Source of the DNA: Thermosulfurimonas marina
GTDB taxonomy: Bacteria; Desulfobacterota; Thermodesulfobacteria; Thermodesulfobacteriales; Thermodesulfobacteriaceae
Reading direction: 5' to 3'
DNA length: 64,000 bases
NCBI RefSeq assembly: GCF_012317585.1
Contig: NZ_CP042909.1
Location: 806,001-870,000 of the forward strand
Shown here: positions 26,347 to 52,919 of the stretch, piece by piece
Layout of the letters: the number at the start of each line of letters is the position of its first letter
Position numbering within the stretch: position 1 is the first letter of the stretch
Notes under the pieces: generated by a model
The model's input: the letters and a program-made list of their open reading frames with translations, nothing else
What the model was told of the DNA's origin: nothing
Database searches by the model: none
Translations under genes and position numbers: made by a program

Positions 26347-26424
26347 TTCTACGCAAAGAACCTCCTGGCCCTTTCCGGAAACCTTTGCCAATAAAAATCA
26401 TCGGAAAGTTAAATAAAAAATTCC

Positions 26425-26453
26425 TTGTTTTTTGAAATTTGGCATGCTAGAAA
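26425..26453 (+). promoter_or_regulatory. Possible promoter of the selenopeptide gene
   Basis: TTGTTT (26425-26430), 17-base spacer, TAGAAA (26448-26453). Both boxes are imperfect. The region is notably AT-rich and is the only promoter-like stretch before the ATG at 26481. Confidence 0.35.
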
Positions 26454-26480
26454 TTAGTTAATAGACCCGTGGAGGGGAAA

Positions 26481-26738
26481 ATGAAGGAAAAAGAGCTTCG
26501 GAAGTTGCTTGCGGGCCTTAGTCTTTCGGCCCTTTTAGCCGGAGGGGGGTTGGCGGCGGCCCCGGTGCTGGCCCAGAGTGGCTGAAGCGGTTGAGGTTCT
26601 AAAAAGGGCGGCGGGCCCGCCCTCATGGAAACTCAACCCGCGGAGAACGCTACGAAAAACGCCACGGAGAATGCCACGGAAAACGCCACGGAGGTCCCCC
26701 GGGCCGAAAAACCTCAGGGCAAAAGCGGCTGAGGCTAA
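26481..26738 (+). CDS. sbtA: SbtA-like selenopeptide RiPP precursor with three in-frame UGA codons
   Basis: Read normally the frame stops after 34 codons at TGA 26583-26585. Reading UGA as selenocysteine gives 85 residues ending at TAA 26736-26738. The leader (MKEKELRKLLAGLSLSALL, then Gly/Ala-rich to PVLAQ) resembles a signal peptide. All three UGAs follow Ser-Gly: Sec35, Sec38 and Sec84 (codons AGT GGC TGA, AGC GGT TGA, AGC GGC TGA). The different synonymous codons suggest selection on the protein. Between them lies a Lys/Gly patch and four Asn-Ala-Thr repeats. GGAGG lies five bases before the ATG. The next gene is a radical SAM/SPASM enzyme, matching the predicted SbtA/SbtM selenopeptide family. 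selA is in the same window. Expression is not shown by sequence. Confidence 0.82.
26589..26638 (+). promoter_or_regulatory. SECIS-like stem-loop for UGA 2 (and perhaps UGA 1)
   Basis: Lower stem GGTTGAG (26589-26595, containing the UGA at 26592-26594) pairs with CTCAACC (26632-26638). The upper hairpin GGGCGG / CCGCCC (26606-26611 with 26617-26622, loop CGGGC) begins exactly 11 nt after UGA 2. The loop lacks the GU of E. coli fdhF. No T-run follows, so it is not a terminator. Confidence 0.55.
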
Positions 26739-26779
26739 GCCCAGCCCCGGTGCGGGGCATCCATGTTTCGTCTAGCCTC
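26731..26779 (+). promoter_or_regulatory. SECIS-like stem-loop for UGA 3, overlapping sbtM start
   Basis: Lower stem GAGGCTA (26731-26737) pairs with TAGCCTC (26773-26779). The upper hairpin GCCCC / GGGGC (26744-26748 with 26754-26758) has loop GGTGC, containing the GGU seen in the E. coli fdhF SECIS loop, and starts exactly 11 nt after UGA 3 (26730-26732). The structure encloses the ATG of the next gene at 26763, so folding may link Sec decoding with maturase translation. Confidence 0.55.
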
Positions 26780-28046
26780 CGGAGTCTCTCTCCGGAAAGA
26801 AGGAGAGCGTTATTTTCTTTCTTTCCGAGATTCCGCGGGCCGGTTTGAGGAAAGGCCGGCCCGAGCCTACGAGCTTGCGGCCCTCAAACTGGTCGCCGAA
26901 GGTCGTCCGTTAAGGGAGGTAGCCGCAGAAGAGGGGCTCCCCCTGGCCCTTCTCAAAAAGGCCCTCCTTGCCGCCTGGCAGGAGGGTCTCCTCGAAAAAG
27001 AGCCTTCGGCCTTGGTGCGCCAAAAGGGTTTTGAAGGGGCCTGGTTTCCCAAAGAAGAATTCCGGCGGGCCGAGGTCTTCACCCTTCAGTGGCATCTCAC
27101 CCAGCGCTGCGATCTTTCCTGTCGGCACTGTTACGACCGTAGCCCCCGCCGGGAACCCACCCTCAGCGAGGCCCGGCGGGTCCTGGAGGAACTGGAACTT
27201 TTCTGTGAAAGGATGCGCGTTTTCGGACAGATCTCCTTTTCCGGAGGGAATCCCTTTCTCTATCCCCACTTCTGGGAGGTCTATAAGGAGGCCGCCGCAA
27301 GGGGCTTCACCCTGGCCATCCTGGGAAATCCCGTCCCCGAGGCCGAGCTCGAAAGGCTCCTGGCCCTCGAACCTCCGGCCTTCTACCAGGTAAGCCTAGA
27401 GGGCCTTTCGGAGACCAATGATTATCTCCGGGGACCGGGACACTTCGAGCGCACCCTGGCCTTTCTCAAAACCCTCAAAGCCCACGGGGTATCCTCTTCG
27501 GTGATGCTCACCCTCCATGCCCGGAATCTTTCCGAGGTGTTGCCTCTGGCCGAAAGGCTTTCCGGGCTTGCCGAAACCTTCAGTTTCAACCGTTTGGCCC
27601 TTTCCGGCCGGGGCCAGAGTCTCCTTCCGGCAGAAAGGAAGGCCTTCGAGAGGTTTCTCGAAGACTACCTTGAGGCCTCCGGCCGCCTCCGGCATCTCCA
27701 TCTAAAGGACAACCTCTTTAACCGCCTGCTTTATCTTCGGGGGGCGGAAGTTTGCGGGGGTTGCACCGGCTTTGGCTGCGGGGCCGCCTTTAATTTTCTG
27801 GCCCTCCTTCCAGACGGAGAGGTCCATGCCTGCCGCAAGTTTCCCTCGCCCCTAGGAAATCTTTACCGGGAGGGCCTTTACCAAATCTATCATTCCGAGG
27901 CCGCCCAGTGTTATCGGGAGGGCCCCCGGGCCTGCCGGCCCTGTCGCCTTTATGGAGTCTGCCGGGGGTGTCTGGCGGTCATAGCCACCTCCGGACTCAA
28001 TCCCTTTGAGGACCGGGACCCCTTCTGCCCCGGGCCGGTGGATTAG
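26763..28046 (+). CDS. sbtM: Radical SAM/SPASM peptide maturase (SbtM-like)
   Basis: Predicted to modify the upstream selenopeptide. It has 427 residues: an N-terminal winged-helix-like region (1-85) that could bind the leader as PqqD-type RRE domains do; a radical SAM core with C116-X3-C120-X2-C123 (RCDLSCRHCYDRS) for the SAM [4Fe-4S] cluster and an SGGNPFLYP glycine motif near 160; and a C-terminal SPASM-type domain with Cys at 331, 334, 339, 357, 391, 394, 400, 403 and 422 for auxiliary clusters. It starts 24 bases after the precursor TAA with only a weak ribosome site inside a hairpin. The 3' end overlaps the convergent DUF434 gene by 4 bases. The product chemistry is unknown; the thio(seleno)oxazole label used for this family is a prediction. 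Confidence 0.85.
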   Translation: MFRLASGVSLRKEGERYFLSFRDSAGRFEERPARAYELAALKLVAEGRPLREVAAEEGLPLALLKKALLAAWQEGLLEKEPSALVRQKGFEGAWFPKEEFRRAEVFTLQWHLTQRCDLSCRHCYDRSPRREPTLSEARRVLEELELFCERMRVFGQISFSGGNPFLYPHFWEVYKEAAARGFTLAILGNPVPEAELERLLALEPPAFYQVSLEGLSETNDYLRGPGHFERTLAFLKTLKAHGVSSSVMLTLHARNLSEVLPLAERLSGLAETFSFNRLALSGRGQSLLPAERKAFERFLEDYLEASGRLRHLHLKDNLFNRLLYLRGAEVCGGCTGFGCGAAFNFLALLPDGEVHACRKFPSPLGNLYREGLYQIYHSEAAQCYREGPRACRPCRLYGVCRGCLAVIATSGLNPFEDRDPFCPGPVD

Positions 28047-51518: not shown

Positions 51519-52919
51519 ATGGCGGAAAAAGAAAAGCTCCTTTCCCAGATCCCGGCGGTACATCGCCTGAGGGAGGAACTTTCCCGGAAACATCCCGGTC
51601 TCCCGGAGGTCTTCTATTTACGGGCCGCCCGGCGCACGACCGAGATCCTGCGCCAGGAGATCCTGGAGGGGCACCTTCGGGGACTTTCTCCAGAAGAAGT
51701 ATTCTCTCGGGCCGAGGAAATCCTCTCGGAGGAGGCCCGTCCCCACCTCCGGCCGGTGATTAACGCTACCGGAGTGGTGGTCCATACCAATCTGGGACGC
51801 TCTCCTCTGGCCGAAGAGGCCCTGGAGGAAATCCTCTCCGTGGCTCGGCGGTACTCCAATCTGGAGTATCGCCTCTCTGAAGGGCGCCGGGGAAGCCGCT
51901 ACGAACATGTGCGGGACCTCCTGCGGGAGCTCACCGGAGCCGAGGAGGCCCTGGTGGTGAACAATAACGCCGCGGCGGTCCTCATCACCCTGAATACCCT
52001 GGCCCGAGGCAAAGAGGTGGTGGTTTCTCGGGGAGAGCTGGTAGAAATCGGGGGCTCCTTCCGCATGCCGGAGGTCATGGCCTGGGCCGGCTGTCGCCTG
52101 CGCGAAGTGGGGACCACCAATCGCACCCATCTGCGGGACTATGAGGAGGCCATAAGCGAAGAGACGGCCCTTCTCATGAAGGTCCACCGGAGCAACTTCG
52201 CCATCGTGGGCTTTACCAAGGAGGTCTCCGGGGCAGAGCTGGTGCGTCTGGCCCGCCGGCACGGCCTTTTTGTGGTGGAGGATTTGGGAAGCGGGTGTCT
52301 GGTGGACTTTGCCCGTTACGGGCTACGGCGGGAACCTACGGTACAGGAGGTGGTGGCCTCCGGGGTGGACGTGGTGACCTTCTCCGGAGACAAGCTCTTG
52401 GGAGGTCCCCAGGCCGGAATCATTGTGGGCCGGGCGGAGCTGGTAGAGCGTATTCGGGCCAATCCCCTGAATCGGGCCCTGCGCATAGACAAACTCACCC
52501 TGGCCGGTCTTGAGGCCACTCTGAGGCTTTATCTGGACGAAAAAATAGCCGTGGAACGTATTCCCACCCTGAAGATGATCCTTATGACTCCCGAAGAAGT
52601 AAAACGCCGCGCTCGACGCCTGACTCGTCTTCTCCAAAAGGCCCTCCCGGAGAGGGCCCGCTTTTCCGTAGTCCCCACCGTAGGACGCACCGGAGGTGGG
52701 GCCCTTCCCCTGGCCGATCTCCCTTCCTTTGCCGTAGCCGTAGAGGTGGAAGGGCTTTCCCCGGAAGAACTTCACGAAAGACTGCGCACCGGAGAACCTC
52801 CGGTGGTAGGCCGCATCGAGGAGGACCGCTTCCTCCTTGAGGTCCGCACCATCTTTGAGGAAGAGTTTCCCCTGGTAGCCAAGGCCCTGAAGAGGGTGGT
52901 GGAAGGTGCCGGAGCCTAG
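51519..52919 (+). CDS. selA: L-seryl-tRNA(Sec) selenium transferase
   Basis: PLP enzyme that turns Ser-tRNA(Sec) into Sec-tRNA(Sec) using selenophosphate; required to decode UGA as selenocysteine. From ATG 51519 it has 466 residues, normal for SelA. The PLP lysine is Lys292 in [30 protein letters not shown] and [15 protein letters not shown] are strongly conserved. It overlaps the next gene (TPR protein) by 14 bases rather than selB, the usual neighbour. selB, selC and selD are not in this window. Confidence 0.96.

Follow-up and report, generated by a model that had tools for sequence, protein, structure and literature searches.

The locus described here lies in a window of 64,000 nucleotides (the whole stretch of DNA that was analysed). 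It consists of sbtA, a short reading frame that runs through three in-frame UGA codons, and sbtM, which encodes a radical SAM/SPASM maturase. The features of the two genes, together with selA, are as follows.

26471..26477, +: ribosome binding site of sbtA, GGAGGGG, read from the sequence
26481..26738, +: sbtA, 85 codons through three UGAs to the stop TAA; TIGR04081, 39.4 bits (cut-off 30.5)
26481..26573, +: leader, residues 1-31, signal-peptide-like by hydropathy and an AXA-type pattern; TIGR04081 covers residues 1-26
26583..26585, +: UGA codon 35, first predicted selenocysteine (Sec); Cys in the relative L101
26592..26594, +: UGA codon 38, second predicted Sec
26605..26623, +: SECIS-like hairpin of 7 bp with the loop CGGGC; its apical loop follows UGA 35 at 26 nt and UGA 38 at 17 nt
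26646..26690, +: spacer with four Asn-Ala-Thr sequons; 4/4 spacer Asn in N-x-T, matched by 0/1000 shuffles
26730..26732, +: UGA codon 84, third predicted Sec, beside the C-terminus
26744..26758, +: SECIS-like hairpin past the TAA, 6 bp, loop GTG; apical loop 17 nt after UGA 84, just ahead of the sbtM start
26763..28046, +: sbtM, radical SAM/SPASM maturase, 427 residues; TIGR04082, 556.5 bits (cut-off 350)
51543..52892, +: selA, selenocysteine synthase; TIGR00474, 620.5 bits; a separate locus at ~25 kb from sbtA and not part of the sbtAM unit

With U standing for UGA, sbtA translates as MKEKELRKLLAGLSLSALLAGGGLAAAPVLAQSGUSGUGSKKGGGPALMETQPAENATKNATENATENATEVPRAEKPQGKSGUG. The initial annotation had described an 85-codon frame with UGA at codons 35, 38 and 84, a final TAA and a good ribosome site ahead of the ATG, and its coordinates and frame are correct as given. 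It had also placed all three TGAs in a Ser-Gly-TGA context with synonymous differences between the copies, which is what the sequence holds (AGT GGC TGA, AGC GGT TGA and AGC GGC TGA). Over all six frames of the window, TGA follows Ser-Gly in 18 of 1339 cases, and the sbtA frame, with three out of three, is the only one that contains at least two; the pattern is therefore more than chance. Membership in the SbtA family, also proposed there, was confirmed by the profile search, in which the Cys-lettered translation passed the TIGR04081 cut-off. The same Cys-lettered peptide retrieved nothing from a protein database at E 1e-3 (104 candidates), a result that, we suspect, reflects deposited entries being cut off at the first UGA. 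Standard gene calling stops sbtA at that codon and yields a 34-residue product, and a gene of this kind is easily missed by ordinary gene finding.

Divergent from sbtA and upstream of it lie yebC, a ruvC-like gene (recognized by eye), ruvA and ruvB, while sbtM, which starts 24 nt after the sbtA TAA, is followed by a DUF434/DUF5616 gene on the other strand and an aconitase-family gene. Judged from these flanking genes, sbtA-sbtM forms a two-gene unit among housekeeping genes. A conserved third gene beside sbtAM was considered and rejected when 29 neighbourhoods were clustered. The group found beside sbtM in 9 loci consists of frames antisense to sbtM (7) or to sbtA (L033 and L079), two-component regulators stand beside sbtM in 8 of the 29 loci (three of ten genes scanned), and three further groups occur in 3 loci each, which is too few for an argument; one such group includes a heavy-metal P-type ATPase (one of three genes scanned). 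Such an ATPase is encoded ~4.6 kb from sbtM in a same-family genome (L071:6405-8426); as the cluster appears in only 3/29 neighbourhoods, we draw no argument from it.

Decoding of the UGA codons

Besides selA, the genome encodes SelB (379.4 bits, cut-off 242.25), a tRNA-Sec (83.9 bits, anticodon TCA) and SelD (359.7 bits), whose own gene carries one in-frame UGA. TGA ends 9 of the 17 window genes checked, so the UGA codon is not reassigned in this genome. SelA was found in 27 of 28 genomes with SbtM; this co-occurrence was rejected as support and given no weight, because 269 of the 297 genomes of the phylum sample have SelA anyway.

In a relative of the same genus (L102), SbtA reads MDREKLRKILASLSFSALLASGGGLALPSGGLGQSGUSGUGSRKGGG...TENATENATENAT...KPAGKSGUA, and all three UGA columns coincide with those of the window. 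The 47 codons aligned after the first UGA comprise 16 identical, 15 synonymous and 16 residue-changing codons; the corresponding numbers before it are 9, 12 and 13. In a same-family relative, L101 (QSGCSGUGSKKGGG...SGKSGUG), Cys takes the place of the first Sec, the second and terminal sites being Sec, and the terminal KSGU[GA] is kept in L103, L104, L105, L027 and L029. Two observations that the initial annotation would have taken as evidence against itself, a frame lost past the first UGA in relatives and a Ser-Gly-Sec/Cys pattern that is not conserved, were thus not made: L102 preserves the frame, and L101 preserves the pattern. Its prediction of three selenocysteines is supported by the three UGAs of L102, by the family profile match and by the Sec machinery of the genome.

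A metagenome-assembled genome (MAG) named Thermodesulfatator sp. (L035, 4755-5237) has the same yebC neighbour, followed by a 5' part of sbtA with QSGUSGUGSKKGGG and then by pieces that resemble, by eye, the end of sbtA and both the start and the 3' part of sbtM. Since both genes are present there only in pieces, internal stretches are missing, through deletions or assembly joins. Same-family genomes (L070:7889-8065 and L104:924-1130) encode a further SbtA-like peptide (SSUGSSUGDKPKRSGVSA), which is shorter and whose leader diverges; in G128 this shorter peptide was missed by the SbtA model.

For a wider comparison, a set of 39 SbtA reading frames was used, from which L101-L105, found later, were left out. 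In it, TIGR04081 matches account for 31 frames that exceed the cut-off and for three that fall short of it (28.8, 23.2 and 16.0 bits); two more frames come from named MAGs (L033 and L034), and three are peptides from the family of the window that the model does not match (G128a, G289b and G289a, the last truncated at the end of a contig). All other rows of the profile search were dropped, including two at 16-17 bits inside long frames. Three Sec codons were counted in 15 of these frames, two in 13, four in 4, one in 3 and none in 4; the second UGA of G282a is possibly a true stop. Cys-only forms (G129 and G202b) and forms with Cys plus one terminal Sec (G029 and G181) show, at the level of predicted residues, an exchange of Cys and Sec across the family. 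Two reading frames, L084:9191-9508 and L080 (G202b), contain no Sec; their many Cys stand in SCGG/SGCG motifs. The genome of G202b also has a four-Sec form of SbtA.

A review lists the family in its tabulated form as 'Selenobacteriocin' (TIGR04081), with the motif SGUG and two Sec (PMC13188914). The window shares with this thio(seleno)oxazole RiPP family the leader model, the adjacent maturase, the SGUG motif and Sec codons with hairpins. It differs from the entry listed there in having three predicted Sec instead of two, and two of its UGAs lie 9 nt apart with one hairpin for both. Three Sec are in themselves not special, as three is the commonest count among the 39 frames. The window sbtA is an addition to a known kind: a three-Sec member in a single-contig genome.

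According to the bacterial SECIS model given in the same review, the apical loop has 3-9 nt with a G in the first two positions, sits on an upper stem of 4-16 bp and lies 16-37 nt after the UGA; the elements are typically within the coding region (PMC13188914). Our strict test required a stem of at least 6 pairs with at least 3 G-C, a loop of 3-5 nt and a distance of 15-28 nt after the UGA, criteria that were fixed after the folds had been seen. By this test, 78 of the 90 Sec codons in the 39 frames passed and 12 failed, against 49/1443 control codons at a distance of over 5 codons from every Sec, 311/2198 of all controls and 0/47 Cys codons. The three UGAs of the window all passed, codon 35 only by way of the hairpin of codon 38. 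Loops 17-22 nt away were found for 67 of 90 Sec codons at shift 0, for 30 and 48 at a shift of one codon, for 4 and 10 at two codons and for 1 to 6 at three or more; the SECIS-like hairpins are thus in register with UGA. For a terminal Sec (at most 6 residues from the C-terminus), the hairpin lies past the stop codon in 24 of the 27 cases in the set.

The evidence for the hairpins of the window is their position and not their stability. Relative to dinucleotide shuffles, the folding energies of its three sites are not unusual (z -0.45, -0.41 and -0.91), and energy z-scores alone were dropped as SECIS evidence in favour of position-specific hairpins. Over all 90 Sec sites the average z is -1.48 and the mean energy -16.1, compared with -12.4 for 2129 control codons, so that Sec sites as a whole are more stable. 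An Rfam search of 26400-26900 gave five matches, with E up to 5 and far below the gathering scores, none of them to a SECIS family.

Among Sec codons about 10 or more residues from the end, 49 of 58 are followed, 3-12 residues on, by the peptide motif [GSTDK][AGT][GV][GST][ATVSP], which follows Cys codons in 1 of 43 cases; the pattern was written after the sequences had been seen. We read this recurring 'GAGS[TA]'-like motif as a probable echo of the RNA hairpin through the code. In the part of the literature that was searched, we met no prior description of a SECIS past the stop, of one hairpin serving two UGAs or of such a peptide echo. The third hairpin (26744-26763) holds a G-rich stretch just ahead of the sbtM start, and translation of sbtM is possibly coupled to the decoding of Sec 84.

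The maturase and its distribution

SbtM aligns to positions 107-516 of the TIGR04082 model, and its same-family relatives begin at positions 102-119. Its predicted structure (pLDDT 93.4) found its best Foldseek matches in SkfB and SuiB, RiPP maturases with 16-20% identity to SbtM. The chemistry of SkfB and SuiB is other than that of SbtM. The N-terminal domain of SbtM is predicted to have an RRE-like secondary structure, an assignment that leans on the order of strands and helices, since the structure comparison hardly reached the domain; a Pfam search of this domain gave no match.

An SbtM is reported in a review to make thio(seleno)oxazoles in vitro (PMC11002830), and the SbtM of the window is predicted to turn Sec residues into selenium-containing rings. 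The initial annotation had spoken of SbtA and SbtM as a computationally predicted family; it was right that the kind was known, but the idea that the chemistry is only predicted has to be given up in view of the in vitro product mentioned in that review.

A protein search with SbtM gave 3288 matches at E 1e-40 or better, and the best named match among the 7998 candidates scored was from Thermosulfurimonas dismutans (63% identical). In the phylum sample, SbtM exceeds the cut-off in 28 of 297 genomes, and 25 of these 28 also have SbtA over its cut-off. Within the window's family SbtM passed the cut-off in 8 of 30 genomes, and within its genus in only two of six, the window's own genome counted. 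In G088, L086 and L096, SbtM and an SbtA match over the cut-off are on different contigs; either the two genes need not adjoin or the assemblies are broken.

Possible export and metal binding, and other readings

The leader of SbtA is likely cleaved after PVLA, to judge from its residues, and the Sec motif would then begin directly behind the cut (PVLA|QSG). Most leaders of the family begin with a short positively charged part and contain a hydrophobic segment (37 ORFs; G289a and G289b left out). By simple patterns, 17 of these 37 are lipobox-like and 15 others are of the AXA type. Shuffles gave a mean of 8.6 lipobox matches and a maximum of 16, three of the 17 matches (G195, G240 and G129) resemble core SGC motifs, and the AXA-type count stands without a control. 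On these patterns, the SbtA product is likely exported.

In three same-family peptides, every Asn behind the leader is in N-x-T (4/4, 3/3 and 2/2, or 9/9 together). The loci found later, inspected by eye, gave 3/3 in L102, 2/2 in L104, 3/3 in L105 and 1/2 in L101, with no Asn in L103. Over the 39 ORFs there are 20 sequons against 11.0 in shuffles (sd 2.9, maximum 22), an enrichment that is strong only in the window's family. The genome encodes an STT3/PglB-like protein that carries WWDYG, and a match to STT3 over the family cut-off was found in 7 of the 8 genomes searched. PglB enzymes of Desulfovibrio are described as taking the minimal N-X-T (PMC4894442). Together, the leader patterns, the sequons, the STT3/PglB-like protein and the use of N-X-T by PglB point to a spacer that would be exported and possibly glycosylated.

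A parallel is offered by the captophorins and bufferins. MNIO enzymes are reported to place 5-thiooxazoles on copper-binding peptides (PMC12452194, PMC12668002, PMC12538549); bufferins, whose precursors carry signal peptides, are exported to the periplasm (PMC12452194). The compounds listed as absorbing at ~305 nm include the modified SbtM substrate (PMC12668002, PMC12538549). The type of ring and a Cys/Sec followed by Gly are shared with SbtA, whereas the captophorin and bufferin rings are made by MNIO and the SbtA maturase is a radical SAM enzyme acting mostly on Sec. No MNIO (PF05114) was matched in the single-contig genome at E 0.001, a search in which 2 of 14 controls gave a signal. By analogy, we infer that the SbtA peptide may do likewise with selenium and bind metal.

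We consider it highly probable that 26481-26738 encodes an SbtA precursor in which the three UGAs very likely specify Sec, from which SbtM is predicted to make selenooxazoles, and whose export is likely. In the mechanism we propose, SelB would use a single hairpin to carry Sec-tRNA to both UGA 35 and UGA 38, and the hairpin beyond the stop to carry it to UGA 84. The N-terminal domain of SbtM would bind the SbtA leader in the cytoplasm, and its rSAM/SPASM part would take four hydrogens off each Sec to give a heterocycle. The weakest step is the last, in which the signal-peptide-like leader would be removed during export and a periplasmic or surface peptide might be left, with rings near both ends and able to bind soft metals. 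A more specific form of this reading, which we put forward tentatively and regard as doubtful, is that the SbtA peptides would form a selenium arm of the thiooxazole metallophores, in which a radical SAM enzyme working on Sec arrived at the ring independently. The form seen here would combine an exported, glycosylated Asn-Ala-Thr spacer, a selenooxazole pair at the new N-terminus and another ring at the C-terminus that clamp soft metals, and a last SECIS beyond the stop at the sbtM start.

Other readings of the locus fare less well. That the first UGA is a true stop and the remainder decayed or non-coding is extremely improbable: TGA does serve as an ordinary stop here, and standard gene calling ends there, but relatives keep the frame, the UGA positions and the motifs, Cys and Sec are exchanged, and the hairpins are in register. 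The label 'Selenobacteriocin', given to TIGR04081 in Table 1 of the 2026 review (PMC13188914), suggests instead that the modified peptide is a secreted antimicrobial. Against this, no recurring immunity, exporter or protease gene appeared in the 29 clustered neighbourhoods, the scanned neighbours of sbtAM in the window are housekeeping genes, and the lipobox-like sites of some relatives would tie the peptide to its producer; we think a bacteriocin unlikely.

We hold it equally unlikely that sbtA is a selenium gauge, in which low selenium would lead to a stop at UGA 35 and a 34-residue signal-like peptide, and sufficient selenium to the full peptide and, through the position of the third SECIS at the start of sbtM, to coupled translation of sbtM. 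In 6 of the 8 same-family loci with the terminal motif, the sbtM frame does have an ATG or a GTG at 32-48 nt, counted from the first base of the last UGA, and a hairpin lies in between, but in the other two (L029 and L105) the sbtM start is 265-268 nt off. In L029 a second SbtA-like frame lies between, and L105 looks alike; Cys-only relatives also speak against a gauge.

For the preferred reading, a modified SbtA selenopeptide, the window is a clean case, with three predicted selenocysteines in 85 codons of a single-contig genome. The family comparison provides testable points, namely a post-stop SECIS for most terminal Sec codons, a hairpin shared by two UGAs and the 'GAGS[TA]' echo. If export and metal binding are true as well, two unrelated enzyme classes would have arrived convergently at the same ring, and for the same purpose.
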